Assembly (NCBI RefSeq): GCF_018499875.1
Contig: NZ_JAHBAY010000010.1
Location: forward strand, 248,001 to 312,000
Direction of reading: 5' to 3'
Length of the DNA stretch: 64,000 bases
DNA from: Kineosporia corallincola
Lineage (GTDB): Bacteria; Actinomycetota; Actinomycetes; Actinomycetales; Kineosporiaceae
Positions 22,532 through 36,870 of this stretch are shown in pieces (position 1 is the stretch's first letter; each line of letters starts with the position of its first letter). The position numbers and the translations under genes were made by a program. The notes below the pieces were generated by a model. That model was not told the DNA's origin, did no database searches, and saw nothing but the letters and a program-made list of their open reading frames with translations.

Positions 22532-22547
22532 ACGACGTGTGTGTTCC

Positions 22548-22561
22548 GGGACCATGGTCCT
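22548..22561. promoter_or_regulatory. DosR/DevR-like palindrome, site 2
   Basis: GGGACCATGGTCCT contains the perfect 12-bp palindrome GGACCATGGTCC (22549-22560) and matches GGGAC-TWWA-GTCCC at 9 of the 10 arm positions. It lies midway between the starts at 22472 and 22634. A possible -10 box for pflB (CATAGG, about 22574) would place it next to the promoter. Confidence 0.5.
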
Positions 22562-22633
22562 TCGACAAAAGCCATAGGACATCAAGGCACTTGGCCTCTG
22601 ACGACCGTTTTCCGTCAGTCGGACGATTGCCTC

Positions 22634-24916
22634 ATGGACACCCTGCGTACCAACGAACAATCGGCCGCCTCCGCCGCCTGGCGTGGATTCGCCGGGCAGG
22701 AGTGGCAGGACCGGATCGATGTCAGCGCCTTCATCAAGGCGAATGTCACCCCCTACAGCGGTGACTCTGCGTTCCTGGCGAAGGCGACCCCTCGCACGGA
22801 CGCGATCCAGCAGCGCATCAGCGAACTCACCCTGGTGGAGCGGGAGAGGGGGATCCTGGACGTCGAGACGAAGATTCCGTCCACGATCACCAGCCACCAG
22901 CCGGGTTACATCGACAAGGACGCCGAGCTGATCGTTGGGCTACAGACCGACGCACCGCTGAAGAGGGGCATCATGCCCAACGGCGGCCTGCGGATGGTCG
23001 AGAACGGCCTGCACGCTTACGGCTACGAGCTGGACCCGTCGGTGAAGGAGATCTTCACCAAGTACCGTAAAGACCACAACATGGGTGTCTTCGACGCCTA
23101 CACCCCCGACATCAAGGCCGCCCGCAAGTACGGCATCGTCACCGGCCTGCCGGACGCCTACGGCCGTGGCCGGATCATCGGCGACTACCGCCGCGTGGCC
23201 CTCTACGGTGTCGACGCCCTGATCGCCGGAAAGAAGGCCGAGAAGGCCGCCCTCGACGGCGAGCGCGCGAGCGAGAGCATCATCCGCGACCGCGAGGAAC
23301 TGTCCGAGCAGATCAAGGCGCTCGGCGAACTGGCGCAGATGGCAGCCGGTTACGGCTACGACATCAGCAAGCCGGCCACCACCGGCGCCGAGGCGATCCA
23401 GTGGCTGTACTTCGCCTACCTGGCCGCGGTGAAGGAGCAGAACGGCGCGGCGATGTCGTTCGGCCGCACGTCCAGCTTCATCGACGTGTACCTGGAGCGG
23501 GACATCGCCGAGGGTGTGATCACCGAGGAGCGGGCCCAGGAGCTCGTCGACGACCTGGTGATCAAGCTGCGCATCGTGCGGTTCCTGCGCACCCCGGAGT
23601 ACGACGCGCTGTTCTCCGGCGACCCGACCTGGGTCACCGAGTCGATCGGCGGCTGCACCGACGACGGCTCGCCGCTGGTCACCCGCACCTCGTTCCGCTA
23701 CCTCCAGACCCTGTACAACCTCGGCCCGGCCCCCGAGCCGAACCTGACCGTGCTGTGGTCGCCGCGTCTGCCGGAGCCGTTCAAGCGGTTCTGCGCGCAG
23801 GTCTCCATCGACACCAGCGCCATCCAGTTCGAGAACGACGAGCTGCTGCGCCCGATGAACAGCGACGACGCCGCGATCGCCTGCTGTGTCTCGGGTGCCA
23901 CGGTGGGCAAGGCAATGCAGTTCTTCGGCGCCCGGGCCAACCTGGCCAAGGCCCTGCTCTACGCCATCAACGGTGGCCGCGACGAGAAGAGCGGCACCCA
24001 GGTGGCGCCGGCGACCGCGCCGGTGGCCGGTGACACGCTGGACTTCGACGACGTGATGCAGCGCTACGACGCGATGATGGACTGGCTGGCCACCACCTAC
24101 GTGGACGCCCTCAACATCATCCACTACATGCACGACAAGTACGCGTACGAGCGCGTGCAGATGGCGCTGCACGACTACGCCCCGCACCGCATGCTCGCCT
24201 GCGGCATCGCCGGGCTCTCGGTCGCGGCGGACTCGCTGTCCGCGATCAAGAACGCCAAGGTGCACCCGGTGCGCGACGAGACCGGGCTCGTCGTGGACTA
24301 TCTCGTGGACGGTGAGTTCCCCTGCTACGGCAACGGGGACGACGACGTGGACGCCCTGGCCGCCGACCTGGTGCACCGTTTCATGCAGAAGCTGCGCTCG
24401 CACCAGGCCTACCGCGACGCCGAGATCACCCAGTCCGTGCTGACCATCACCTCGAACGTGGTGTACGGCAAGAAGACCGGCAACACCCCGGACGGACGGC
24501 GCGCGGGCGAGCCGTTCGCCCCCGGTGCCAACCCGATGAACGGCCGCGACCGGCACGGCCTGCTCACCTCGGCGCTCAGCGTGGCCAAGATCGACTACGC
24601 GGACGCCCGGGACGGCATCTCGCTGACCTCCACCACGGTTCCCTCGGCCCTGGGCCGCACCCGGGAGGACCGGATCAGCAACCTGGTCGGTGTGATGGAC
24701 GCCTACATGGTGGCCGGCGGCTATCACATGAACGTCAACGTGCTGGAGCGGGCGACGCTGATGGACGCCATGGAGCACCCGGAGAACTACCCGAACCTGA
24801 CCATCCGGGTCTCCGGCTACGCCGTCAACTTCGTCCGGCTCACCAGGGAACAGCAGCTGGACGTGATCAGCCGCACCTTCCACGGCGACGCCCGCGACTC
24901 GGCAGCGCTGGTCTGA
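22634..24916 (+). CDS. pflB: Pyruvate formate-lyase (formate C-acetyltransferase)
   Basis: 760 residues, the same length as E. coli PflB. Active-site Cys417-Cys418 lie in [12 protein letters not shown], and the glycyl-radical site is Gly728 in RVSGYAV. Other landmarks are [39 protein letters not shown] and [39 protein letters not shown]. The enzyme splits pyruvate plus CoA into acetyl-CoA and formate and works only without oxygen. It is followed one base later by its activase. No strong Shine-Dalgarno precedes the ATG. PFL is not common in actinomycetes. Confidence 0.97.
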
Positions 24917-24917
24917 C

Positions 24918-25721
24918 ATGAACACGTCCGTCAGCGTCGAGATCGGCGAGCGTCCCCCGCTCGCCGGGTACGACCCGGATATCTGGCGTTCCGGCCGGGC
25001 CGGCTGGGTGCACTCGTGGGACATGTCGATCGGGGTGGACGGACCGGGCTGCCGGTTCGTGCTGTTCACCGCCGGCTGCCCGCTGCGCTGCCAGTACTGC
25101 GCGAACCCGGACACCTGGACGGCCCGGGGTGGCAGGGTGACGCTGGTGGACGAGGTGGTGACGAGGATCCGGGGCTACCGGGCGGCCCTGGTCGCGGGCG
25201 GCGGGGGCGTGACGATCAGCGGAGGCGAGCCGATGGCCCAGCCGAAGTTCATCGGCAACGTCCTCGCCGAGGCCCGGGCGATGGGCCTGCACACGGCCCT
25301 GGACACCTCCGGCATCTACGGGGACCTCGGGTCCGACGAGTTGCTCGACGACGTCAGCCTGTTCCTGCTCGACATCAAGTCGTTCGACCCGGCGACCTAC
25401 CGCAGGACGACCGGGCAGCCGGTCGAGCCGACGCTGCGGTTCGCCCGGCGCCTGGCCGAGCGGGGCCGGCCGGTCAACCTGCGCTTCGTGCTGGTGCCCG
25501 GCCTGACCGACGCCCCGGACAACGTCGAGGGGGTGGCGCGGTTCGCGGCCGGGCTCGGGAACGTCGAGCGGGTGGACGTTCTCGCGTACCACACGCTCGG
25601 TCTGGAGAAGTACCGCAAGCTCGGGCAGCGCTACCGCCTGGAGGGGGTGCGGCCTCCCACCCGGGAGCAGGTGGAGGAGGCGAAGAAGCACTTCTCCGAC
25701 CGGGGGCTCACGGTCAGCTGA
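24918..25721 (+). CDS. pflA: Pyruvate formate-lyase activating enzyme (radical SAM)
   Basis: 267 residues. The radical SAM cluster Cys are 54, 58 and 61 (CPLRCQYC), followed by NPDTW, the typical PflA segment. GGGVTISGGEPMAQPKF holds the SAM-binding GGE motif. It uses SAM and a 4Fe-4S cluster to place the glycyl radical on PflB. It starts one base after the pflB stop and is surely co-transcribed. A strong palindrome follows at 25729. Confidence 0.96.
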   Translation: MNTSVSVEIGERPPLAGYDPDIWRSGRAGWVHSWDMSIGVDGPGCRFVLFTAGCPLRCQYCANPDTWTARGGRVTLVDEVVTRIRGYRAALVAGGGGVTISGGEPMAQPKFIGNVLAEARAMGLHTALDTSGIYGDLGSDELLDDVSLFLLDIKSFDPATYRRTTGQPVEPTLRFARRLAERGRPVNLRFVLVPGLTDAPDNVEGVARFAAGLGNVERVDVLAYHTLGLEKYRKLGQRYRLEGVRPPTREQVEEAKKHFSDRGLTVS

Positions 25722-25769: not shown

Positions 25770-26702
25770 TCACGGCCTGAGCTTCTGGAGGTGTGCCAGG
25801 CTGCCGTAAAGACCAGTCAGGTGCGCGAACTCGGCCTCGTCGTAGAACGAGGCGATGCCCCGGCCGTAGTCCTTGGCCACCTCGATCACGAAGCGCACCG
25901 CGCTCTCCACCACCTGGAGGTCGGAGGCGCCGGTGGCCGAGCCGGGCACGGCGGTGACCGTGGTCAGCGCGACGCCGACGACCGGGGCGCTGGTCGCCGT
26001 GGTCGGCTGCACGATCGAGTTCACGTGGTACACGTCGTTGCCGTACGGGGTGATGTCCTGCGTGGTGATCGGCATGATCACCGGGGCCAGGCCGCTGGTG
26101 CGCTCCACCGCGTCGAGCAGGGTCTCGGAGACCCGCAGGATCCAGCCCTCCTTGATGGTCGGCGTGATCGCGAAACCGCGGTGGTTGCACACCCGGTTGC
26201 CGCGGGTGGTGTCGACGGACAGGATCGCGTCCATCGCCGGGTCGACCTCGACCTCGTTGGTGACGGCCATGTCGACGGCCGAGCCCATGAACGGCACCGG
26301 GTCGTGCGGCTGGGTCGGGGCGTCCGGGTCGACGTGCGTGCTGACGACCACGTCGCCGGGCAGCCGGTCGCCCTTGGCCGCGGCGTCGAGCAGCTTGGCC
26401 GCGGCGGACAGCGCCACCAGCGCGCCGTCGCCGTCCGAGACGAACCCGATCTGCTCCGGACGGGCGCCGAGACCGCCCAGCCGGCCGATGATCCCGAGGG
26501 TCGGCGCGTCACCGCCGGAGCTCTTGCCGTTCGTGCCGGGGATGGTCAGCGAGACGAAGTCGGTGGCTCCCGCGTCGCCGGTCACCTCGGTGACCCGGAC
26601 GTCGGTGGCACCGAGCGCGCGCAGCGCCCCGGCGGCGGCCTCACCGCTGGCGGCGGGGGAGTCGAGCAGTTCGGAAAAGGCGAGGACATGGCGCCAGGAC
26701 AC
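25770..26702 (-). CDS. DUF1177-family protein
   Basis: 310 residues from GTG 26702, with AAGGAG eight bases upstream. No biochemical role is known for DUF1177. The sequence carries conserved-looking polar motifs that could bind a metal: GDVVVSTHVDPDAPTQPHDPVPFMGSAVDM, DAILSVDTTRGNRVCNHRGFAITPTIKEGW and PITTQDITPYGNDVYH. These recall the look of M20/M42-type zinc peptidases, but I cannot align them. It is the last gene of iclR-OPT-aroM-racemase-DUF1177, 38 bases behind the racemase, so it probably acts on a compound imported by the OPT protein. Confidence 0.82.
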   Translation of the reverse strand: MSWRHVLAFSELLDSPAASGEAAAGALRALGATDVRVTEVTGDAGATDFVSLTIPGTNGKSSGGDAPTLGIIGRLGGLGARPEQIGFVSDGDGALVALSAAAKLLDAAAKGDRLPGDVVVSTHVDPDAPTQPHDPVPFMGSAVDMAVTNEVEVDPAMDAILSVDTTRGNRVCNHRGFAITPTIKEGWILRVSETLLDAVERTSGLAPVIMPITTQDITPYGNDVYHVNSIVQPTTATSAPVVGVALTTVTAVPGSATGASDLQVVESAVRFVIEVAKDYGRGIASFYDEAEFAHLTGLYGSLAHLQKLRP

Positions 26703-26740
26703 GGTGGAACTCCTTCGGATTGCTTTTATTACCAGGTGTT

Positions 26741-27382
26741 TCAGAAGCGGGCTGCGAGCAGCCCGCCGGTCCGGACCGCGTCCACGACCGGCAGGCCCAG
26801 CCGTTCCCGCAGAGGCTCCGCCAGACCGATCGTGGTCATGCCGGTGCAGGCCAGCATGACCACGTCGGCCCCGGCGGCGACCAGCTCGTCGCCGCCCCGC
26901 AGGCAGGCCTCGAAGCCGGAAGCGGTGAGCAGGTCCGCGGTTTCGTGGACGCCCTCGGGCTGGAGCGAGGCGATCAGCCGGTCGCCCAGCACCGACGTCA
27001 CCGACACCGGCGTCTGCGGGGTCAGGTCGAGCACGCCGATCCGGGTGCCCAGGGCCAGCGCCACCGCGGCGGCGGCCGATCCGGCGCCGGTCACCGGCAC
27101 GGAGCACAGCCGGCGCGCGGCCTCCAGGCCGGGGTCGGCGGCGCAGCTGATCAGGAGGGCGTCCACCTGATCGTTCAGTTCCCGGGCCAGAACCGGGATT
27201 TTGGACGACGCGGCGGCGAAACTCGCGTCGTCGTGCACGCCCCGGGGCTGGTCCGGGATGGCCCGGGTGACGGTGGTGATCCCCAGCTCGGCCTCCAGGA
27301 TGCGGCCGTGGGTGCCGAGAAATTCCTCGTCGTCCGAGGTGACCACCCGCAGCACGCCGACGGTACGGCTCGCCCGGCTCAT
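26741..27382 (-). CDS. Asp/Glu/hydantoin racemase-family protein
   Basis: 213 residues; ATG 27382 overlaps the aroM stop (ATGA). Cys in LLISCAADPG and the later VVMLACTGMTTIGL match the two catalytic Cys of the Asp/Glu/hydantoin racemase superfamily, and VPVTGAGSAAAAVALALGTRIGVL the linking strand. These enzymes invert the alpha carbon by a two-base Cys mechanism. The N-terminus (VGVLRVVTSDDEEFLGTHGRILEAELG) is longer than in glutamate racemase and nearer to hydantoin racemase. Probable substrate: an amino acid or cyclic imide released in the pathway of this operon. Confidence 0.85.
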   Translation of the reverse strand: MSRASRTVGVLRVVTSDDEEFLGTHGRILEAELGITTVTRAIPDQPRGVHDDASFAAASSKIPVLARELNDQVDALLISCAADPGLEAARRLCSVPVTGAGSAAAAVALALGTRIGVLDLTPQTPVSVTSVLGDRLIASLQPEGVHETADLLTASGFEACLRGGDELVAAGADVVMLACTGMTTIGLAEPLRERLGLPVVDAVRTGGLLAARF

Positions 27383-28083
27383 GCGGCAGGTGCTCCCCGG
27401 TCGAGCAGCTCGGCGGCCAGCCGGGCCACGACCGACCGGGCCAGCACCACCGGCACCCCGGCCTCGTCGGCCAGCGCCGCGCGCATCGGCTGCGAATAGC
27501 CCATGCAGTCGGCCACGATCAGCTGCGCACCCCGATCCCGCAGGCGTCGCGCCGCTGCGCGCAGTCCGGGGGCGACGGGTGCGCCGTCGGCGCCGACGTA
27601 CGGGCTCGCGTCGTCCACCACCACCTTCGCGTCCAGGGCGGCGTACTTGCCGTCGGGGTGATGACGCTGCTCGGGCAGCGGCACCAGCACGCCCACGGTG
27701 TCCAGGCCGGCGGCCAGCGCGGCCACGCCCGGGCCGATCATCCGCTCCGGCCGCAGCAGCGGCCTCGCGCCGGTGACCTCCTCGAAAGCGCCGGTGCAGG
27801 CGAGGAACACGGCGTCCACGTCGTCCAGGCCGTCGAGGATGCGCTGCACCCGGGGCACGATGTGGTGGTGCGCGACGATCGCGTTCGAGCCGTCGCGCAG
27901 CCGCGTGGTCAGCACCTCGTCGCCGGGCCCCGGGGCCATGGCGGCGATCTCGTCCGGCCCGTCGTCGTCCAGGGCACCGCGTTCCACCAGGTCCACGCCG
28001 GGCAGCCAGGTGCGCAGCTCGGGGGTGAGGTCGGTGCGGGGGGCCTGGCCGATCGTCACGACCGCCAGTCGGGAGTTGCTCAT
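27379..28083 (-). CDS. AroM-family protein
   Basis: 234 residues; ATGA overlaps with both neighbours. The start RLAVVTIGQAPRTDLTPELRTWLP is the AroM signature. Cys in AVFLACTGAFEEV and in LIVADCMGYSQPMR sit in the same places as the racemase catalytic pair, so AroM looks like a distant member of the Asp/Glu racemase fold. Despite the name, AroM has no proven role in aromatic synthesis. Here it is wedged between an OPT transporter and a racemase, which argues for a catabolic isomerase-like function. Confidence 0.85.
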   Translation of the reverse strand: MSNSRLAVVTIGQAPRTDLTPELRTWLPGVDLVERGALDDDGPDEIAAMAPGPGDEVLTTRLRDGSNAIVAHHHIVPRVQRILDGLDDVDAVFLACTGAFEEVTGARPLLRPERMIGPGVAALAAGLDTVGVLVPLPEQRHHPDGKYAALDAKVVVDDASPYVGADGAPVAPGLRAAARRLRDRGAQLIVADCMGYSQPMRAALADEAGVPVVLARSVVARLAAELLDRGAPAA

Positions 28084-29723
28084 TTGAGGATCTGTCCTGC
28101 CGAGTAGATCGAGTCGCCGGCGATGAGACCGGCTCCGACGAGGGCCATCTCGTTCTCGCCCTGGTCGCCGCGGGTGCGTTCCCAGACCACCCGCACGGCC
28201 AGCGCGGCCAGCACCAGCCAGCCCGCGTTCGGGCTGCTGACCAGCAGACCGGTGGCCAGCAGCACACCCATCTGCCGCTTCGGGCCGCCGATCAGCTGGA
28301 TCAGCGCGCCGGGGATCGCCCACAGCGCCAGCGTGGTGATCATGTGCGGCTTGGTCAGGCCGTCGACGATCGAGGTGGCGTAGACGGTGGAGACCGGCGG
28401 CACGTCACCGGCCTCGAAGTACGAGCGCCACAGCAGGGCCACCATGGCGGCGGCCACCACGAAACCGATGACGCCGCCGAGAAGCTGCTGCCGGCGTCCC
28501 TCGAGCTCGAAGGCCGTGTAGGGACGGTGCTCGCGGCGCAGCAGCCAGCCGGCCTTGAAGTCGTAGCCCATGTCGGCGAACGCCGGGCCGGTGGCCGCGC
28601 AGTAGCCGACCAGCACGATCAGCGGCTCGGTCGGAATGTGCAGCAGCAGGCCGAAGATCAGGAAGATCAGGGTGACGGCGAAGGCCGGGAACCAGCCCGA
28701 GTGCATGGCGGCCAGGCCGACGATCAGCTCGTGCACGATGGCGGCGAACGCGGCGAACAGCACCCAGCCGATCATCGCCGGCACCGACATGTCGCCCCAG
28801 ATGCCGGTGGCGGTGGCCAGCACGATCGCCCCGGCCACATAGAGGCCGTATCCGATCGAGAAGGTGCGGCGCAGAGCCTCGACGGTGACCGTGGGGGCGA
28901 GCGACGGGTCGTTCTCGTCCAGCGCCTGCGGTGCCGGGGCGCCCTTCGCCGACGAGGACCGCCCGGCCAGCAGGAACCCGGCCTGCACCAGCGCCACCAG
29001 GCCCGCGCCGATCATCACGCCGTGCGGGATGTACTGCGACGACAGGGTCACGCCGCCGTCCGAGAAGTTCGGGTAGTACTGGTTGATCAGCAGGCCGATG
29101 CCGAACATCAGCAGCGCCCACATGTTTCCGATCAGGGCCACACCTGCCGCGGACATCGGCAGGCCGAAGAAGTTCAGCGCGAAACCGGCCACGCCGCCCG
29201 CGCCGAGCAGTGCGGCCTGCTTGCCGCCGGAGTCACCGGCCTTGATCGTCTCGGCCGCCGCCACGCCCGACGGCCAGGCGCCGTGGGCGGGCAGGAACGA
29301 CGAGCCGTAGCTGCGGTACAGCACCCACACGTCGATGGCCAGACCCATCAGAGCACCGCACAGCATCGGCCAGACCAGGTCGGTGCGACCGGTGGCCCAG
29401 GGGATCGCGATCGGCGTGATCAGCGAGTTGGCGGCACCGAACGTGGCGCTGGAGATGGCGGTCTGGGCCAGGTTCTGGCGGTGGATGCTGCGGAAGCGGA
29501 CCAGGCCCATGAAGGCGACCCGGCCGACCAGCATGGCGACGAGAGCGCCGATCACCGAGGTGTTGGGCGAGATGCCCAGTGTGGTGATCATGTGCAGGCC
29601 GATCATCGCGCCGAGCACGCTCAGGATCGCGAGCACGACCAGGGTGAGCGGCTCCAGGGCACGGGGGTGCTCGGCCTGCGCCGGGACCCCGGGCGAGGTG
29701 CCGGTGGTGGCGTCGACGGACAT
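28080..29723 (-). CDS. OPT/YSL-family oligopeptide transporter
   Basis: 547 residues with about 14 hydrophobic helices (LVVLAILSVLGAMIGLHMITTLGISPNTSVIGALVAMLVGR at the start). NLAQTAISSATFGAANSLITPIAIPW and GTGPAFADMGYDFKAG-like ATGPAFADMGYDFKAGWLLR are typical of bacterial OPT proteins. It should import small peptides or metal-chelate compounds through the cytoplasmic membrane. It lies 39 bases after iclR and overlaps aroM by ATGA, so uptake and conversion are under one control. Peptide cargo is suggested by the divergent S51 dipeptidase. Confidence 0.88.
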   Translation of the reverse strand: MSVDATTGTSPGVPAQAEHPRALEPLTLVVLAILSVLGAMIGLHMITTLGISPNTSVIGALVAMLVGRVAFMGLVRFRSIHRQNLAQTAISSATFGAANSLITPIAIPWATGRTDLVWPMLCGALMGLAIDVWVLYRSYGSSFLPAHGAWPSGVAAAETIKAGDSGGKQAALLGAGGVAGFALNFFGLPMSAAGVALIGNMWALLMFGIGLLINQYYPNFSDGGVTLSSQYIPHGVMIGAGLVALVQAGFLLAGRSSSAKGAPAPQALDENDPSLAPTVTVEALRRTFSIGYGLYVAGAIVLATATGIWGDMSVPAMIGWVLFAAFAAIVHELIVGLAAMHSGWFPAFAVTLIFLIFGLLLHIPTEPLIVLVGYCAATGPAFADMGYDFKAGWLLRREHRPYTAFELEGRRQQLLGGVIGFVVAAAMVALLWRSYFEAGDVPPVSTVYATSIVDGLTKPHMITTLALWAIPGALIQLIGGPKRQMGVLLATGLLVSSPNAGWLVLAALAVRVVWERTRGDQGENEMALVGAGLIAGDSIYSAGQILK

Positions 29724-29762
29724 GGTGTTCCTCCGGAACGATCTTGATGAGATGCGCTGGTG

Positions 29763-30503
29763 TCAGCGCAGCAGGGCGGACAGCTCCCGCGCTGCCGAGA
29801 GAACCTGGTCGATCAGGGCAGGATCGACCTCCAGCGGCCGGGTGACACCGATCACCGAGACGCTGGCGGAGACCTCGCCGCTCACCCGGATGGGCGCGGC
29901 GAGCGAGGTGACGTGCGGATTGACCTCGCCGCAGGAGTAGGCCCAGCCCTGTTCGCGGGTGAGCCGGTGGCGCTCGCGGATCTCCTCGGCCCGGCGCGGG
30001 CCGGACCGGGTGGACTCCTCGAACCCGGTGGCCAGCAGGGCGTCGACCTCGGCCTCCGGGCGGAAGGCGTAGATCGCGTGCCCGGAGGCGCCGCCGTACC
30101 AGGGGTAGCTGCGGCCGAGGGTGAGTTCCCAGCGCAGGTCGCCGGGGGCGTCGGCGGCAGCGGTCAGCTGGTAGCGCGAGCCCTGGCGGACGTTGAGCAC
30201 CGCCGAGCGGCCGGTCGAGGCGGCCAGCCGGTGCAGGACGGGCAGCGCGATCTGGCGCGTGCCGTCGGACTCGGCGGCGAGCTGGCCCAGCCCGATCAGG
30301 GCGGGGCCGAGCCGGTAGAGCCGGGTGCGGGGGTCGGGGACGACGAAACCACGGCCGGCCAGCGTGGCCAGGATGCGGTGGGCCTGGGAGGTGCCGAGGT
30401 CGAGGCGGCGGGCCACCTCGCTGACACCCCAGGCACCCTCCGTGGAGGTGAACAGCCCGAGCACGTCGAGGGCCCGCTGGACGGTGAGAAGTTCGTCAGC
30501 CAT
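29763..30503 (-). CDS. IclR-family transcriptional regulator
   Basis: 246 residues. The N-terminal winged helix reads LLTVQRALDVLGLFTSTEGAWGVSEVARRLDLGTSQAHRILATLAGRGFVVPD, the C-terminal effector domain QGWAYSCGEVNPHVTSLAAPIRVSGEVSASVSVIGVTRP. IclR proteins bind small organic acids or related metabolites. AAAGGAG precedes the ATG. It heads the OPT-aroM-racemase-DUF1177 operon and faces the dipeptidase gene; two repeated operator-like sites lie just upstream (30515-30550). Confidence 0.93.
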   Translation of the reverse strand: MADELLTVQRALDVLGLFTSTEGAWGVSEVARRLDLGTSQAHRILATLAGRGFVVPDPRTRLYRLGPALIGLGQLAAESDGTRQIALPVLHRLAASTGRSAVLNVRQGSRYQLTAAADAPGDLRWELTLGRSYPWYGGASGHAIYAFRPEAEVDALLATGFEESTRSGPRRAEEIRERHRLTREQGWAYSCGEVNPHVTSLAAPIRVSGEVSASVSVIGVTRPLEVDPALIDQVLSAARELSALLR

Positions 30504-30514
30504 CTGTTGCTCCT

Positions 30515-30550
30515 TTCCGATAATCGGGATACTGTTCCGTACATCGGGAT
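30515..30550. promoter_or_regulatory. Two-site operator between iclR and the dipeptidase gene
   Basis: TTCCGATAATCGGGAT (30515-30530) and TTCCGTACATCGGGAT (30535-30550) agree at 13 of 16 bases, repeat with a 20-bp period and each has CCG/CGG dyad symmetry; the first holds the perfect CCGATAATCGG. This fits binding of an IclR tetramer to two adjacent half-operators. Confidence 0.6.
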
Positions 30551-30616
30551 GCAGGTTAGGCCGGGGTCACCCCCCGGATCCAGCCCCTCGCGTTTCAGGG
30601 CCGTAAAGTTTTGCCT

Positions 30617-31369
30617 GTGGAACTTCTGTTGCTCTCCAACACGACCAATCACGGCGGCACCCCGTACGGGCACGTCAGAGCCGATCTGGCGGATTTCGTC
30701 CGGGGGATCACGAAGGGCGTCTTCGTCCCCTTCGCCTTGGCCGATCACGACGCCTACACCGCCTCGGTGGCCGTGCCCTACGCGGAGGCCGGGGTCGAGC
30801 TGACCGGCCTGCACACCGTCGGCGACGCCGCCGCCCAGGCCGCCGCGGTGGCGTCGGCCGAGCTGGTCGTGGTCGGCGGCGGCAACACCTTCCGCCTGCT
30901 GCGCACCCTCCAGCGCGCGGGCCTGGTGCAGCCGCTGCGCGAGGCGGTCGCCGCCGGCACCCGCTACGTCGGCACCAGCGCCGGCACGAACATCACCGCG
31001 CCGACCATCCGCACCACCAACGACATGCCGATCGTCGAACCGGACTCGTTCGAGGCGCTGAACTTCGTTCCGTTCCAGATCAATCCGCACTACATCGACG
31101 CCGACCCGGCCAGCAGGCACATGGGCGAGACCCGCGAGACCCGGCTGCGTGAGTTCGGTGAGGAGAACGACGTCCCGGTGCTCGGCCTGCGCGAGGGAAC
31201 GTATCTGCGGGTGTCCGGCGAGACGGCGCGGATCGGCGGCAAGGCCGTCTCCCCCCTGGCCCCCGGCCCGGCCATCCTGTTCCGCCAGGGCGCCGAGCCC
31301 GAGGAGATCGCCGGCGACGTCAGCGGCCTCCTGGCCCTGCCGGCGGAGTACGACTCGCCCCTGGGCTGA
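30617..31369 (+). CDS. pepE: Peptidase E (S51, alpha-aspartyl dipeptidase)
   Basis: 250 residues from GTG 30617 (TTG 30611 is possible). No Shine-Dalgarno is present; TAAAGT at 30604-30609 would place transcription at the GTG, so the message is probably leaderless. The catalytic Ser is in VGTSAGTNI, preceded by VVGGGNTFRLL; the His is in PFQINPHYIDADP, all as in E. coli PepE, which cleaves N-terminal Asp from dipeptides in the cytoplasm. It faces the iclR-OPT operon and shares its operator region, so Asp-X dipeptides are a plausible cargo of that system. Confidence 0.92.
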   Translation: MELLLLSNTTNHGGTPYGHVRADLADFVRGITKGVFVPFALADHDAYTASVAVPYAEAGVELTGLHTVGDAAAQAAAVASAELVVVGGGNTFRLLRTLQRAGLVQPLREAVAAGTRYVGTSAGTNITAPTIRTTNDMPIVEPDSFEALNFVPFQINPHYIDADPASRHMGETRETRLREFGEENDVPVLGLREGTYLRVSGETARIGGKAVSPLAPGPAILFRQGAEPEEIAGDVSGLLALPAEYDSPLG

Positions 31370-31854: not shown

Positions 31855-32967
31855 TCAGGCGGCGGTGGGGGCGGGGAGGGTGTGAGGGGCGGGGAGAGCG
31901 GCCAGCACGCGGTCGGTGGCGATCGCGTCGGCCACGGTGATCCGGACCCCGTCGCCAGGGTAGGCGCGGACCAGGATGTCGGCTGCTGCAAGGCTTTCCA
32001 CGGTGCGGCGGCTGTTCTCGTCGTCCATGCGCAGCCAGACGAAGTTGGCCGCGCTGTCGGGCACCCACCAGCCGCTCGCCCGCAGCCCGGCGGTCAGGCG
32101 GGCGCGTTCGCCGACCACGGCGGCCACTCGCTGGGCGATCTCGTCGACGGCGTCCAGCGAGGCGATCGCCGCCTCCTGTGCCAGGGCGGTGACGCCGAAC
32201 GGCAGGGCTGTGCGGCGTGCGCCCTCGGCGAGTTCCGGATGCGCGATCGCGTATCCCACCCGCAGTCCGGCCAGGCCGTAGGCCTTCGAGAAGGTGCGCA
32301 GAACACAGAGATTCGGGTAGCGGTGGTAGGCGGCCAGGCCGTCGACCGGGTCGGTACCGGTGACGAACTCGACGTACGCCTCGTCCAGGATCACCAGCAC
32401 GTGCGGCGGTACTGCGTCGAGGAAACCGGTCAGCTCGTTGTGTGAGAGCGGCACGCCCGTGGGGTTGTTCGGCGAGCAGAGCAGCACCACCCGGGTGGCC
32501 GGGCCGATCGCGGCCAGCATCGCGGGCAGGTCGTGGTGCTCGTCGGCGGTCAGCGGCACCGGCACCGACGTGCCCCCGGCGATCGCCACCAGGATCGGGT
32601 AGGCCTCGAAAGACCGCCAGGCGTGCACCACCTCGTCGCCCGGCTCGATCACCGCGTTCAGCAGCTGCTGGAGCACGCCGACGCTGCCCGGCCCGACCAC
32701 CACCTGGTCGGCGCCGCCGGAATCCGTTCCGCCGGGGCCCGCGACACCGCAGTGCCCGGCGATCCGCTCACGCAGGGCGGTCGCGGCCATGTCGGGGTAG
32801 CGGTGAACCCGCAGGGCCCCGGCCAGGATCCGCTCCCGCACCGAGGGCAGCGGGTCGAAATGGCTCTCGTTGGAAGCCAGTGCGGCCACGTCGGCGCTGA
32901 GCGAGCGCCGTCCGGGCACGTAACCGGGCAGGTTCCGCACCGCGGCGCGCAGCTCCGGGCGGCTCAT
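31855..32967 (-). CDS. pat: Aromatic amino acid aminotransferase (Pat; HisC-like, class I/II PLP)
   Basis: 370 residues; ATG 32967 overlaps the decarboxylase stop (ATGA). The start RAAVRNLPGYVPGRRSLSADVAALASNESHFDPLPSVRERI is the signature of actinobacterial Pat proteins, which are split from HisC and prefer aromatic 2-oxo acids. The PLP lysine is in LRTFSKAYGLAGLRVGYAI and the Asp/Tyr pair in VLILDEAYVEF. CSPNNPTGVPLS is the usual ring-binding loop. Coupled to a ThDP decarboxylase it would make the aryl-pyruvate that the decarboxylase uses. HisC remains an alternative, but no his genes are nearby. Confidence 0.85.
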   Translation of the reverse strand: MSRPELRAAVRNLPGYVPGRRSLSADVAALASNESHFDPLPSVRERILAGALRVHRYPDMAATALRERIAGHCGVAGPGGTDSGGADQVVVGPGSVGVLQQLLNAVIEPGDEVVHAWRSFEAYPILVAIAGGTSVPVPLTADEHHDLPAMLAAIGPATRVVLLCSPNNPTGVPLSHNELTGFLDAVPPHVLVILDEAYVEFVTGTDPVDGLAAYHRYPNLCVLRTFSKAYGLAGLRVGYAIAHPELAEGARRTALPFGVTALAQEAAIASLDAVDEIAQRVAAVVGERARLTAGLRASGWWVPDSAANFVWLRMDDENSRRTVESLAAADILVRAYPGDGVRITVADAIATDRVLAALPAPHTLPAPTAA

Positions 32968-34634
32968 CGGGCGCTCCCGCTGTTGCGCTCGGCCAGTTTT
33001 CGCAGAAGTGTTGGGGCGTCGAACATGTCGAGCACCGCGTGCACCAGCACGATCCGGTCGGCGGGCGCCGCGTCGAGGGCGGTCCGCAGCTCGTCCGTGG
33101 TGCGCACCGTGCTCGCCTCCAGCCGTCCAGCACCGATCATGGACGACGCCAGCCCCGCCCAGTCCCACGCCGCGATGTCGTTGTAGCCGGCCTTCGGGCT
33201 CTGGAGGGCCCGCTCGATCGTGTAGCCGGCGTTGTCGATCAGCACGATCACCGGGTTCAGGCCGTGGCGGGCGATCGTGCTGAGCTCCTGGATCGTCATC
33301 TGGGCCGCGCCGTCGCCGATGAACAGCACCGGCCGGCGGCCCGGATCGGCCAGTCCCTGGCCCAGGGTGGCGGGCAGCGCGTAACCGATGGAGTTCCAGA
33401 CCGGCTGGCCGACGAACACCGTGTCGTCGGGCAGCGTCATCGAGACCGCGCCCCAGAAGGCGGTTCCGGTGTCGGCCAGCACCGCGGTGCCGGACGGCAG
33501 CCAGGAACCGGCTGTACGCCAGAGGCTCTCCTGCGTGATCGCGTCGTCCCCGAACTCCGGATGCCGGGGCGGCACCGGGTCGGCGGTCGGCTGATCGGCG
33601 AAACGGTATTTCTGGCAGTGGTCTTCGAGAACCCGCACGGCGTCGGTGAACAGCACCGGGTGGGTGGAGCCGGTGCCGTCCGGGCCGACGGTGGCCGAGG
33701 TGGCGCCGATCCGCACGGTGCGGATGCCCGCCGGGCGGTGGGTGAAGAAGCCGGACAGCACGTCGCTGACCACGGTGCCGAGCTCGATCACCAGGTCGGC
33801 ACCGTCGACCAGCCCGGCGGTGGAGGCGTCGACCATGGTGCCGGCGTAGTCGCCGCGGTGCAGCGGCTCCGAGGCGTCGATCGCGCCCTTGGCGGCGAGT
33901 GTGGTGACCAGTGGGATGTTGGCGGCCCGGGCCGCGGAGAGCACCTGCCCGGCGAGCCCGAACCGGGACACCAGGTGGCCGACGACGAGCACCGGGCGGC
34001 CCGCGCCGTCCATCAATCGGGACAGCTCATGGGCGAACTCACCGACCGCGGCCTCGTCCGGGGCGGCCCGCAACGGCTTTCGCAACGGGGCCGGGTCCAC
34101 GGGCAGGCCCGCCAGGTCCTGTGGGATGCTCAGGTAGGCCGGGCGGCGGTGGGTGAGCGCGGCCAGCAGCACGGCGTCGACCTGCTCGGTGGCGTGTTCG
34201 GCCGTCACCGTCTCCTGATGCACGGTGACCTCGGCGAAGGCCTTCTCGAAGCGGTCGAACACGCCGTCGGCCAGGGTGTGGTGCAGCGGCCGCCGTGCCG
34301 CCACCGCCCCGGTGGCCGGGCTGCCGGCGATGTGCACCACCGGCACGTCCTCCGCCGCGGAACCGGCGACCGCGTTGAGGCAGCTGAGTTCGCCCACGCC
34401 GTAGGTGGTCACGAGTGCGGCCAGGCCCCGGCGGCGGGCGTAGGCGTCGGCGGCGTAGCCCGCGCCCAGCTCGTTCGGCGATCCCACCCACTCCAGCCCG
34501 GGCACCGTCGTCACCAGGTCGAGCAGGGTGAGGTTGAAGTCACCCGGCACGCCGAACAGGTGGTCGACACCGGCCTGACGCAGCCGGTGACCCAGGTACT
34601 CGGCGAGGGTGATGGGCTCCGAAGGGGTGGTCAT
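32964..34634 (-). CDS. Thiamine-diphosphate decarboxylase of the pyruvate/indolepyruvate decarboxylase family
   Basis: 556 residues. N-terminal domain: TLAEYLGHRLRQAGVDHLFGVPGDFNLTLLDLV with the PP-domain Glu in WVGSPNELGAGYAADAYAR. The ThDP/Mg site is GDGAAQMTIQELSTIARHGLNPVIVLIDNAGYTIE, the GDG-x(n)-N pattern. VPGDFNL and NAGYTIE are typical of PDC/IpdC/KivD. It converts a 2-oxo acid to an aldehyde and CO2. Being translationally coupled to pat and divergent from an Lrp regulator, the likely substrate is indolepyruvate, phenylpyruvate or a branched oxo acid rather than pyruvate alone; that part is inference. Confidence 0.92.
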   Translation of the reverse strand: MTTPSEPITLAEYLGHRLRQAGVDHLFGVPGDFNLTLLDLVTTVPGLEWVGSPNELGAGYAADAYARRRGLAALVTTYGVGELSCLNAVAGSAAEDVPVVHIAGSPATGAVAARRPLHHTLADGVFDRFEKAFAEVTVHQETVTAEHATEQVDAVLLAALTHRRPAYLSIPQDLAGLPVDPAPLRKPLRAAPDEAAVGEFAHELSRLMDGAGRPVLVVGHLVSRFGLAGQVLSAARAANIPLVTTLAAKGAIDASEPLHRGDYAGTMVDASTAGLVDGADLVIELGTVVSDVLSGFFTHRPAGIRTVRIGATSATVGPDGTGSTHPVLFTDAVRVLEDHCQKYRFADQPTADPVPPRHPEFGDDAITQESLWRTAGSWLPSGTAVLADTGTAFWGAVSMTLPDDTVFVGQPVWNSIGYALPATLGQGLADPGRRPVLFIGDGAAQMTIQELSTIARHGLNPVIVLIDNAGYTIERALQSPKAGYNDIAAWDWAGLASSMIGAGRLEASTVRTTDELRTALDAAPADRIVLVHAVLDMFDAPTLLRKLAERNSGSAR

Positions 34635-34685
34635 GCAGTCAACATGGGGCCGGTCGCGCACCCTGCGCAATATCCTGGTCGGCGC

Positions 34686-34702
34686 TTGAGCAGGATGCTC
34701 AA
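34686..34702. promoter_or_regulatory. Probable Lrp/AsnC operator
   Basis: TTGAGC-AGGAT-GCTCAA is a perfect 6-5-6 palindrome in the 93-bp gap between the decarboxylase and the Lrp gene. It covers an ATG at 34695, which argues that the regulator really starts at TTG 34728. Confidence 0.5.
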
Positions 34703-34727
34703 GGAGAGGTTGTCGAAAGGATTCGCA

Positions 34728-35207
34728 TTGAGCAACCTGACACCCCTGGATGCTACCGACGCGCGCATCCTGCTGGCCCTCGACCGTGACCCCCAGGCCA
34801 CGGTGGTGGCGCTGGCCAACGACCTGAAGCTGGCCCGGAACACGGTGCAGGCCCGGCTGCGGCGGATGAACACGAACGGGGCGCTGGGCCGCAACAGCCG
34901 CCGGGTCGAGCCGGAGGCGGTGGGCTATCCGCTGCTGGCGTTCGTCACGGTGTCGATCCAGCAGCGCATGCGGGTGGAGGCCACCGAGGCGCTGGCCGGC
35001 CTGCCGGAGATCGTCGAGCTGCTGGCCACCACGGGGGAGGGCGACATGCTGTGCCGGGTGGTGGCCCGCGACACCGCCGACCTGAACCGGATCACCGAGC
35101 ACCTCGTCGACATGCCCGGGATCGTGCGCACCAGCACCTCGATCGTGCTGCGCACGGTGCGGCCGCTCCGGATGGACCCGCTGCTGGAGGAGCTGGCCGG
35201 GAGGTAG
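34728..35207 (+). CDS. Lrp/AsnC-family transcriptional regulator
   Basis: 159 residues from TTG 34728, with AAAGGA about seven bases upstream; ATG 34695 would add 11 residues but lies inside the operator palindrome. The helix-turn-helix is LDATDARILLALDRDPQATVVALANDLKLARNTVQARLRRMNTNGALG, the RAM effector domain VTVSIQQRMRVEATEALAGLPEIVELLATTGEGDMLCRVVARDTADLNRITEHLVDMPGI. Lrp proteins sense amino acids. It faces decarboxylase-pat and very likely controls them in response to an amino acid such as Trp, Phe or Leu. Confidence 0.92.
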   Translation: MSNLTPLDATDARILLALDRDPQATVVALANDLKLARNTVQARLRRMNTNGALGRNSRRVEPEAVGYPLLAFVTVSIQQRMRVEATEALAGLPEIVELLATTGEGDMLCRVVARDTADLNRITEHLVDMPGIVRTSTSIVLRTVRPLRMDPLLEELAGR

Positions 35208-35233
35208 CGTACGCCCTGTCGGCCGCGCATCCG

Positions 35234-35446
35234 CTAGTGCTCGTGAGTGACCGGTGGCTGCCAGATCTCGTGCGCGCGGGTGGCGGGGCGGCCGTCCCAG
35301 TGCAGGTCGCGGCTCAGGTCGAGGGTCTCGAGCAGAGTCGGGGCGCTGATCGGTCGGCGTTGAGCTGAGGGGGTAGTTGCCGCAGCCCCGGTCGCCGCAG
35401 CCGCACAGGGGGATTCGGGCCAGGGCTTGGCCGGAAATCCTGGCAC
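35234..35446 (-). pseudogene. Possible frameshifted remnant of a small Cys-rich protein gene
   Basis: The peptide RIPLCGCGDRGCGNYPL in one frame resembles the CGxCGDxGCG segment of small actinobacterial proteins. The downstream piece DLSRDLHWDGRPATRAHEIW continues in a different frame to a stop at 35234. No start or ribosome site supports an intact gene. It may be chance in GC-rich DNA. Confidence 0.2.
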
Positions 35447-35475
35447 AGTCGGACGGATCCGGCATTCCGGGAAAA

Positions 35476-35512
35476 TTTTGACACCGCCCAGCCGCCCAGG
35501 GCGGTGTCAAAA
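35476..35512. repeat. Hairpin, copy B of the TTTTGACACC element
   Basis: TTTTGACACCGCCC (35476-35489) pairs with GGGCGGTGTCAAAA (35499-35512) around a 9-base loop. It shares its first 10 bp of stem with the hairpin at 31567-31627; between them lies exactly pat, the decarboxylase gene and lrp. Confidence 0.65.
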
Positions 35513-35517
35513 ATGAG

Positions 35518-35583
35518 GGGGTGCCCCCGTGCCGGGCGAGGGGTGCCCCCGTGTCGGGCGAGGGGTGCCCCCGTGCCGGGCGT
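35518..35583. repeat. 22-bp tandem triplicate
   Basis: Three head-to-tail units of 22 bp (35518-35539, 35540-35561, 35562-35583) starting GGGGTGCCCCCGTG. They differ at only two positions. No function is apparent. Confidence 0.75.
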
Positions 35584-35605
35584 GAGGCCCGGGCCTCACG
35601 CCCGG
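35576..35605 (-). terminator. 30-bp perfect palindrome spanning the stop of the PLP enzyme gene
   Basis: Bases 35576-35590 are the reverse complement of 35591-35605. The TGA of the minus-strand gene (35596-35598) is inside the palindrome. It would fold at the 3' end of the transcript; no T-run follows. Confidence 0.5.
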
Positions 35606-36870
35606 CGGGTGAACTCCGTCCGGTCCAGGGCGGTCCTCAGGTCGGCGAGCAGGTCCTCGACGTCCTCCAGCCCGATCGACAGCCGAAGATGGCCGTACCG
35701 CAGGAACTCCGGCGGGTAGTGCTCGCTGCCGCCGCGGGCGTCCGGGCCGACGTGCACGATCAGCGACTCGTCGTGGCCGAGCGAGACGGCGGAGGTAATC
35801 ACCCGCAGGTTGGCCACGAACCGGTTCTGGGTGGCCGGGTCGCCGTCCAGCGCGAAGGCCAGCACGGCGCCGTACCCCCGGCCGCCGAACTGGCGCCTGG
35901 CCAGCTCGTGCTGGGGATGCGACGCCAGGGAGGGATGGGCGACGAAGGCGATGCGCGGGTCGGCGTCGAGGAACCGGGCCACGGCGTCGGCCGAGGCCAG
36001 GTGCTGCCGCAGCCGCAGCGGCAGGGTGACCGAGCCCCGCATGATCAGCCAGGCGTTGAACGGCGAGAGCACGCCCCCGACGTCCACGATCGCGTCGTGC
36101 CGGATGCGCCCGATCGTGGCCGCGTCGCCGGTCACCACACCACCCATCGCGTCGCCGTGCCCGTTGACGTACTTCGTCAAAGAATGGACGACGAGGTCGG
36201 CCCCGTCGGCCAGCGGCCGGTAGAGCGGCGGCGGGGTGAACGTGGCGTCGACGGTGAGCAACGCGCCGGCCTGGTGGGCGATCGCCGAGAGTGCCCGCAC
36301 GTCGGCCACCTTCGTGGTCGGGTTGGCGATCGTCTCGACGTGCACGAGCCTGGTGGTGGGACGGATCGCGGCGCGGACGGCGTCCGGGTCGCCGGCGTCC
36401 ACGAACGTCGCCTCGATGCCGTAGCGCCGGGGGAGCAGCTCGGCGAACAGCCGCCAGACCGCCTCGTAGGTGACGTCGGACACCACCACGTGGTCGCCGC
36501 CGCGCAGCAGCGTGAAGAACATGCCGTGCAGTGCCGCGACGCCGGTGGCGAACACCGCGGCGGCCTCGCCACCGTCCATCGCCGCCAGTTTGCGTTCCAG
36601 CGCGGCCTGATTCGGGTTTCCGTTGCGGGTGTACAGCGGCCGGTCGGTCGCCGACCAGTTCATCGACGCCGGGTCCTCGGGCAGGGCGTAGGAGTTCGCC
36701 AGCACGAGAGGACTGCGGATCGCGCCGCTGCCGGCGTCGATCTCGTTGCCGCCGTGCACCGCCCAGGTGCCGGTGCCCACGGTGGCCGGGTCGTGCCGGT
36801 CGGGTCGTTCGCTGGTCTCGTCCACCGACCGCACGATAGGGCCGGGGCGGGATGCCCCGTCGTCACTCAT
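35596..36870 (-). CDS. Cys/Met metabolism PLP-dependent lyase/transferase (cystathionine gamma-synthase/lyase family)
   Basis: 424 residues. The PLP lysine is in VVHSLTKYVNGHGDAMGGVV; RNGNPNQAALERKLAAMDGGEAAAVFATGVAALHGMFFTLLRGGDHVVVS is the phosphate-binding half of the fold, and HVETIANPTTKVAD the ring-stacking loop. The family includes cystathionine gamma-synthase, cystathionine gamma-lyase and methionine gamma-lyase, and I cannot pick one. The N-terminal 45 residues are a polar extension. The gene stands alone on the minus strand; the start codon has no clear ribosome site. Confidence 0.88.
   Translation of the reverse strand: MSDDGASRPGPIVRSVDETSERPDRHDPATVGTGTWAVHGGNEIDAGSGAIRSPLVLANSYALPEDPASMNWSATDRPLYTRNGNPNQAALERKLAAMDGGEAAAVFATGVAALHGMFFTLLRGGDHVVVSDVTYEAVWRLFAELLPRRYGIEATFVDAGDPDAVRAAIRPTTRLVHVETIANPTTKVADVRALSAIAHQAGALLTVDATFTPPPLYRPLADGADLVVHSLTKYVNGHGDAMGGVVTGDAATIGRIRHDAIVDVGGVLSPFNAWLIMRGSVTLPLRLRQHLASADAVARFLDADPRIAFVAHPSLASHPQHELARRQFGGRGYGAVLAFALDGDPATQNRFVANLRVITSAVSLGHDESLIVHVGPDARGGSEHYPPEFLRYGHLRLSIGLEDVEDLLADLRTALDRTEFTRRA

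Follow-up and report, generated by a model that had tools for sequence, protein, structure and literature searches.

A window of 64,000 nucleotides from the actinobacterium Kineosporia corallincola (NZ_JAHBAY010000010.1, positions 248,001 to 312,000) carries six adjoining genes at 25770-31369 that may well form a system for taking up and degrading small cyclic amides, most likely 2,5-diketopiperazines, also called cyclic dipeptides. We put the probability of this reading at slightly below one half (about 0.48). Five of the genes lie on the minus strand (iclR, OPT, AroM, racemase and DUF1177) and face a divergent pepE. The gene set, its conservation, the folds, the cysteine pairs, the triad positions of PepE and the conservation of an operator-like element were all established by computation.

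We infer the substrate, the direction of the pathway, each reaction and the regulation as follows. The OPT-family protein would import a small cyclic amide of amino acids, most likely a cyclic dipeptide. The PF01177 racemase and AroM, each relying on a two-cysteine acid-base pair, would epimerise the acidic alpha carbon or carbons within the ring, and the ring amide would be opened by DUF1177, a hydrolase-fold protein structurally related to M28/M42/M20. PepE would subsequently cleave the linear dipeptide, at least if it is of the Asp-X type. Finally, IclR would sense the compound or its product and control the operon, perhaps also pepE. In view of the importers and peptidases, the substrate is very probably of a peptide type. 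A cyclic substrate is somewhat favoured by the type of the racemase, by the chemistry of alpha carbons and by sister cassettes that contain DUF917, hydantoinase and oxidase genes; its identification as a diketopiperazine in particular is tentative.

Conservation of a modular cassette

All six families exceed the Pfam cut-offs in a scan of the window proteins. An NCBIfam scan gave equivalog matches for PepE (268.6 versus a cut-off of 156) and AroM (PRK10481), and no match for the OPT protein at E 0.001. In operon order from iclR, the genes are spaced by 39 bp, two successive ATGA overlaps and 38 bp; the gene content, minus-strand packing and gap sizes of the original prediction agree with the coordinates and Pfam families found. 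Searches of the 8.2 Mb genome found a single copy each of OPT, AroM and DUF1177, all three inside 5.6 kb here, and four PF01177 genes.

To place this arrangement among its relatives, we used 80 loci, the best 80 of at least 541 DUF1177 relatives confirmed in a profile scan of genome contigs, a set skewed in favour of the window protein's nearer relatives. Fourteen of these loci are shorter than 12.5 kb, and their taxa were read by hand from record titles. The counting threshold was 60 bits (AroM, racemase, OPT, PepE) or 80 bits (IclR), and the other genes were counted by cluster membership; the SBP5 and DppBC labels were assigned by eye, and second PF01177 genes are undercounted. The resulting co-occurrence counts are raw fractions lacking a random-locus baseline, for which the clustering of three genes, each single-copy in an 8.2 Mb genome, is the nearest substitute. 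Near DUF1177 we found AroM in 65 loci, IclR in 45, OPT in 39, M29-like genes in 32, SBP5-type binding proteins in 30, M20 in 30, racemase in 28, PepE in 27 and S33-like genes in 6. OPT or a Dpp part, counted as a peptide-type importer, is present in 63 of the 80, and 65 have one or more peptidase-like genes (PepE, M29-like, M20 or S33-like). Among the 66 loci of at least 12.5 kb, OPT occurs in 35, SBP5 in 29 and both in 6, Dpp-type ABC importers replacing OPT; one of their ATPases is oligo_HPY by Pfam, and plasmid annotation agrees. Because OPT alternates in this way with Dpp-type importers (both in only 6 of the 80 loci), it more likely imports peptides than metal chelates.

The cassette pattern is modular. 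In actinobacterial loci, OPT, AroM and DUF1177 are mostly joined by PepE and IclR; many of these loci also have the racemase, and some have M29-like and S33-like genes. Many Bacillota loci read Dpp-DUF1177-M20-IclR, some with additional M29-like, AroM and amidohydrolase genes, and several Synergistota and clostridial loci read OPT-racemase-DUF917-DUF1177-AroM, most of them with an M29-like gene. Supporting genes in related cassettes include DUF917 (20/80), hydantoinase/oxoprolinase genes and Xaa-Pro peptidases. Related sets recur in many bacteria and archaea; a lack of conservation beyond the genus, named beforehand as grounds for rejecting the original prediction, is not what we find. PepE occurs in 27 of the 31 actinobacterial loci versus none of the 49 others, some of which are short. 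In L021 and L024 it directly follows DUF1177. These counts, 27 among all 80 loci, and its presence inside two plasmid operons support its membership of the cassette.

Plasmids also carry the cassette. Among 72,556 plasmid records, DUF1177 is found in 7, an OPT gene of the window type in 8 and AroM in 9. Sodalis praecaptivus pHS1 and a Klebsiella pneumoniae plasmid hold the same six families in a reordered series, IclR-OPT-DUF1177-AroM-PepE-racemase (IclR by annotation). On a Planococcus plasmid, DUF1177, IclR and OPT are accompanied by an Xaa-Pro peptidase and genes for hydantoinase A/B. DUF1177 is missing from a Shinella plasmid, whose genes encode AroM, OPT, a racemase, DUF917 and a Dpp-type importer together with a hydantoinase and an M20 aminoacylase. 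In Variovorax, OPT stands apart from cassette genes, and in Microvirga no other cassette family was found around an unannotated OPT copy.

Several of these loci have features of their own. The Klebsiella cassette (L195) lies on a conjugative plasmid and is flanked by transposase genes, which suggests recent mobility; a near-match search of E. coli with it gave no match. A 44.7 kb circular Paenibacillus record (L201), perhaps a phage-plasmid, has IclR, Dpp, an ArgE/DapE-type gene, DUF1177 and AroM adjoining phage structural genes. Two distinct DUF1177 cassettes stand side by side in L033 (3464-18922), one with a Dpp importer and the other with OPT. An extra gene of about 280 residues lies near AroM or DUF1177 in L050, L053, L055, L057, L067 and L070; its L055 member has no Pfam match and its L053 member no NCBIfam match. 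The M29-like proteins (L042 2204-3223 and relatives) span about 320 residues versus the 406 positions of the Pfam model, the three that were scanned have no NCBIfam match, and they may be other than ordinary aminopeptidases.

Proteins and control region

The racemase scores 75.7 bits on PF01177 versus a cut-off of 31, and its closest relatives in the PDB are hydantoin and allantoin racemases, 2eq5 being the nearest by sequence. AroM belongs by fold comparison to the Asp/Glu/hydantoin racemase superfamily, again with 2eq5 as the nearest PDB entry. The paired cysteines of both proteins, pointed out in the original prediction, are invariant among the collected homologues, C80 and C179 in 29 of 29 racemases and C96 and C193 in 66 of 66 AroM proteins. 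The profiles of the two families match at 97.2% (hhalign, E 3.6e-11) with C96/C193 aligned to C80/C179; the fold is common to both proteins, their invariant cysteines falling at matching positions, and profile and fold comparisons agree with the earlier view that the operon encodes two related isomerase folds. A racemase or epimerase role for both gene products would suit these features. An alpha carbon gains acidity when it is part of a cyclic amide.

DUF1177 resembles M28/M42/M20 metallopeptidases in fold. The 50 Foldseek rows listed are M17 aminopeptidases, with a TM (query) of about 0.5 and a root-mean-square deviation above 7 Å; re-ranking by VIA-align puts M42/M28/M20 proteins first, at 8-16% identity among the rows listed. 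Sequence searches of the PDB with DUF1177 returned nothing meaningful. R74, D92, H123 and D164 are invariant in 59 of 59 sequences, and they seem to depart from the customary two-metal arrangement. In a register drawn from secondary structure and the ligands of those enzymes, and unlike in M28/M42/M20 proteins, DUF1177 has no Glu-Glu pair past the corresponding strand (118-124), an Arg stands at the likely first His ligand, and position 261 is D, H, Q, R or C. It is conceivable, if doubtful, that DUF1177 is a new class of ring-opening amidase in which an M28/M42-like fold bears a rebuilt active site, perhaps metal-free or single-metal, and hydrolyses diketopiperazines alongside AroM and PF01177 in-ring epimerases, all forming a mobile cyclic-dipeptide catabolic cassette common to bacteria and archaea.

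In PepE, an alignment with the aspartyl dipeptidases 1fy2 and 7c9b places S123, H160 and E195 (numbered from the TTG), which we take to be the catalytic triad, at positions invariant in 28 of 28 sequences.

The best-conserved stretch of the iclR-pepE intergenic region among three sequences (30514-30550, upstream of iclR) holds both copies of a palindrome-like element (Table 1). The IclR protein would be its binder. Because the element adjoins the iclR start, likely past the promoter of that gene, the simplest guess is that it serves to repress the operon. The original prediction had placed an operator shared by iclR and pepE here; a conserved element does exist in the three sequences, but it stands on the iclR side rather than midway, about 70-100 bp from pepE, on which an effect is possible. 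The operator pattern has a single exact match in the 8.2 Mb genome and 78 more rows at one or two mismatches versus two rows for a backward control pattern, with the qualification that a palindromic pattern is counted twice and that one of the 78 rows is the operator's own place on the opposite strand. The near matches are far commoner than the control, leaving room for possible regulon targets beyond the exact copy. On the other side, CGTAAA(G/C)TT right before the GTG start of pepE (window 30604-30617) is common to the three sequences. The GTG at 30617, shared by two relatives, is a more likely start than the TTG at 30611, and pepE may be transcribed without a leader.

Table 1. Genes and control elements of the cassette (window coordinates)
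Feature	Position	Strand	Evidence or remark
DUF1177 gene	25770..26702	-	GTG start; M28/M42/M20-like fold; Pfam DUF1177 431.6 bits
PF01177 racemase gene, hydantoin/allantoin-racemase type	26741..27382	-	Pfam Asp_Glu_race; C80/C179; PDB 2eq5, E 2.3e-54
AroM-family gene, Asp/Glu-racemase fold	27379..28083	-	Pfam AroM 237.5 bits; C96/C193
OPT-family importer gene	28080..29723	-	PF03169 72.1 versus cut-off 25.8 bits
iclR regulator gene	29763..30503	-	Pfam IclR_C 73.4 bits and HTH_IclR
Divergent control region, iclR to pepE	30504..30616	.	Aligned in window, L009 and L023
Palindrome-like operator candidate ATCCCGATTATCGGAAA	30514..30530	-	Kept in window, L009 and L023; possibly IclR-bound
Weaker second copy of the element, ATCCCGATGTACGGAA	30535..30550	-	Intergenic alignment
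Possible pepE -10, TAAAGT	30604..30609	+	Directly 5' of the GTG start; putative
pepE, S51 dipeptidase	30617..31369 (open reading frame list start TTG 30611)	+	Pfam Peptidase_S51 189 bits; PepE equivalog

Downstream of DUF1177 and convergent with it, at 22541-25721, are a pyruvate formate-lyase gene and an activase gene, which exceed the cut-offs of TIGR01255 and TIGR02493. Beside pepE, at 31855-36870, an aminotransferase, a keto-acid decarboxylase, an Lrp/AsnC-like regulator and a methionine/cystathionine lyase-like gene, judged by eye, possibly make up an amino-acid degradation neighbourhood.

Weighing the substrate

One pointer to cyclic dipeptides comes from archaea. DUF1177 occurs in 12 of 115 genomes of the Thermococcus phylum, to which locus L029 belongs. 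Of 11 archaeal regions opened, seven hold racemase, DUF917, DUF1177 and AroM together, six of them with OPT; the others have DUF1177 with AroM (one) or DUF1177 alone among the families searched (three). The cyclodipeptide oxidase subunit CDO-B (PF19585) is present in six of the 12 DUF1177-bearing genomes, a frequency that has no baseline from archaeal genomes lacking DUF1177. In three of them (G478, G545 and G472) its gene abuts or overlaps a same-strand nitroreductase gene (CDO-A) within about 8 kb of DUF1177; in G475 it lies about 15 kb from DUF1177, and in the two others on another contig. One CDO-A-like nitroreductase has albonoursin synthase (8uc3, E 9.3e-28) as its best PDB match. The characterised oxidases act on cyclic dipeptides, according to the accessible portions of PMC11055893.

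A number of observations, besides the two missing baselines noted above, weigh against our reading. The window operon has neither DUF917 nor CDO, its genome yields no CDO-B (PF19585) match and the window is not classed as a CDO cluster. CDO-B was found in only two of 50 DUF1177 genomes taken from the scan and in two of 396 genomes of the window's phylum, and four CDO-B regions (L150, L157, L158 and L159, the last only 5 kb) contain none of the 11 families searched; on these results cyclodipeptide oxidase was rejected as a general partner in the bacteria tested, and the link between cassette and oxidase holds only in the Thermococcus-phylum set. For oxidases outside CDPS clusters, whose substrates are given as unknown, the accessible portions of PMC11055893 favour hydantoin-like rings. 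OPT, AroM, racemase and PepE occur together in only 15 of the 80 loci, and AroM and racemase co-occur in 27. In one family of the window's phylum, all six opened DUF1177 loci have DUF917 and an M29-like gene without AroM or racemase, and epimerisation is therefore not essential everywhere. Homology of DUF1177 to M42/M28 at the sequence level was rejected, hhalign giving a probability below 1% for a 59-sequence alignment of low diversity (Neff 2.3) compared with 21 M42 and 10 M28 proteins, so that fold comparison is the sole support for this relationship. Finally, the literature search found no biochemical data on DUF1177, AroM or the OPT clade of the window.

A hydantoin, thiohydantoin or other cyclic-ureide pathway, in which the racemase and AroM would racemise 5-substituted hydantoins, DUF917 or DUF1177 open the ring and M20-type enzymes strip the carbamoyl group, draws on the same preference for hydantoin-like rings. 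It is also in line with a DUF917 member (L041) that scores 277.6 bits on thiohydantoin desulfurase, below the cut-off of 440, with M20 in 30 of the 80 loci (one above the DapE-ArgE cut-off) and with the hydantoinase genes carried by the plasmids of Planococcus and Shinella. The importers, by contrast, look peptide-type, PepE, M29-like and Xaa-Pro enzymes act on peptides, and no DUF917, M20 or hydantoinase gene is found among the six window genes; we regard this pathway as rather unlikely. We hold it unlikely, too, that linear aspartyl, iso-aspartyl or D-Asp dipeptides are imported and cleaved with PepE as the main enzyme and the racemases recovering D-residues. PepE does have S51 motifs of the Asp-X type and recurs in the loci and two plasmid cassettes counted above. 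It was found in none of the 49 non-actinobacterial loci, some of them short, where M20 or M29-like genes are common, and Asp is for this reason not the shared feature; moreover, the racemase is closest to hydantoin and allantoin racemases, and the archaeal oxidase pair finds no place in such a scheme.

The OPT/YSL family includes metal-chelate carriers, and plasmid annotation reads OPT/YSL; import of metal chelates followed by enzymatic recycling of the chelator is nonetheless extremely unlikely given the alternation of OPT with Dpp-type importers and the peptidase-like genes in 65 of 80 loci. Ten members of recurring clusters, compared with Pfam, included no metal-homeostasis protein, most clusters being unannotated. 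Scavenging or detoxification of peptidoglycan- or antibiotic-derived peptides, with PepE acting like the S51 enzymes of microcin C resistance, has a precedent in S51 peptidases that can confer such resistance (PMC9239234, in the portion available). It would leave two racemase-fold proteins and DUF1177 unexplained, and a partial look at the same ten cluster members revealed no muropeptide or microcin gene; we consider it very unlikely.

Between these alternatives, breakdown of small cyclic amides is the reading we prefer. The peptide-derivative catabolic system of the original prediction stands as a conserved peptide-type catabolic cassette; its aspartyl or isoaspartyl substrates were not established. 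Cyclic compounds, a mere option there, have gained ground, as the oxidase pair, DUF917, the hydantoinase genes and the relatives of the racemase point more toward cyclic dipeptides or similar rings.

Relation to known systems

The gene association is already partly known, from the oxidase side: the accessible portions of PMC11055893 (Nat Commun 2024) describe PF01177, DUF917, AroM, OPT, Dpp and peptidase genes near oxidases, so that calling the system undescribed was too strong, at least for AroM, PF01177, DUF917 and OPT. No description of the PepE-containing cassette was found by gene-combination searches of the open-access literature, in which this paper alone seemed pertinent. The absence of a known reaction for AroM and DUF1177 is borne out, AroM being called uncharacterised in the same portions of that paper and no function being found for DUF1177 in open-access literature, where its sole mention found, in one of 5.39 million papers, is a sentence on plant RING proteins. 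As for diketopiperazine-hydrolysing enzymes, the available part of PMC3852281 (2013) states that they were unclear and that none of the peptidases tested did so. Published degraders of diketopiperazines include Paenibacillus chibensis DSM 329, Streptomyces flavovirens DSM 40062 and Leifsonia sp. K3. The cassette supplies candidates for this breakdown, DUF1177 to open the ring and AroM/PF01177 to handle its stereochemistry, and with them testable roles for two families for which no assigned reaction was found. Because it is compact, is present in bacteria and archaea and also occurs on plasmids, its reconstitution in a laboratory strain looks feasible.

Hydantoin utilisation comprises a racemase, a hydantoinase, an N-carbamoylase and a carrier. 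The logic of racemase, importer and hydrolase is also that of the window operon, which differs in its peptide-type importer and peptidase; Pfam and NCBIfam searches of the six window genes, the part of the genome searched, found no hydantoinase or carbamoylase beside the racemase. Among PDB entries, the Pyrococcus horikoshii 'hydantoin racemase' 2eq5 comes closest to the racemase in sequence and to AroM in fold; the PDB listing names it hypothetical. The window PepE keeps the motifs and Ser/His/Glu positions of 1fy2 and 7c9b and differs from these aspartyl dipeptidases in clustering with a transporter and two isomerase-fold proteins. Compared with the CDO-like clusters outside CDPS loci in the accessible text of PMC11055893, the cassette shares gene families, and three archaeal DUF1177 runs include the CDO-A/CDO-B pair; the window genome lacks CDO-B, DUF1177 is absent from the main text as far as accessible, and the PepE-IclR version was not found there. 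Chemical parallels are offered by NozR and OpaE, both from natural-product synthesis, of which only OpaE was compared with the racemase (E 6.2e-4). According to the available parts of their descriptions, NozR isomerises cyclo(Trp-Trp), with no detectable conversion without Cys75 or Cys179, and OpaE acts on peptide derivatives; they share with the window protein the Asp/Glu racemase family, a cysteine pair (C75/C179 in NozR, C80/C179 here) and a liking for cyclic or peptide-derived substrates that would suit the in-ring epimerisation proposed for the cassette.

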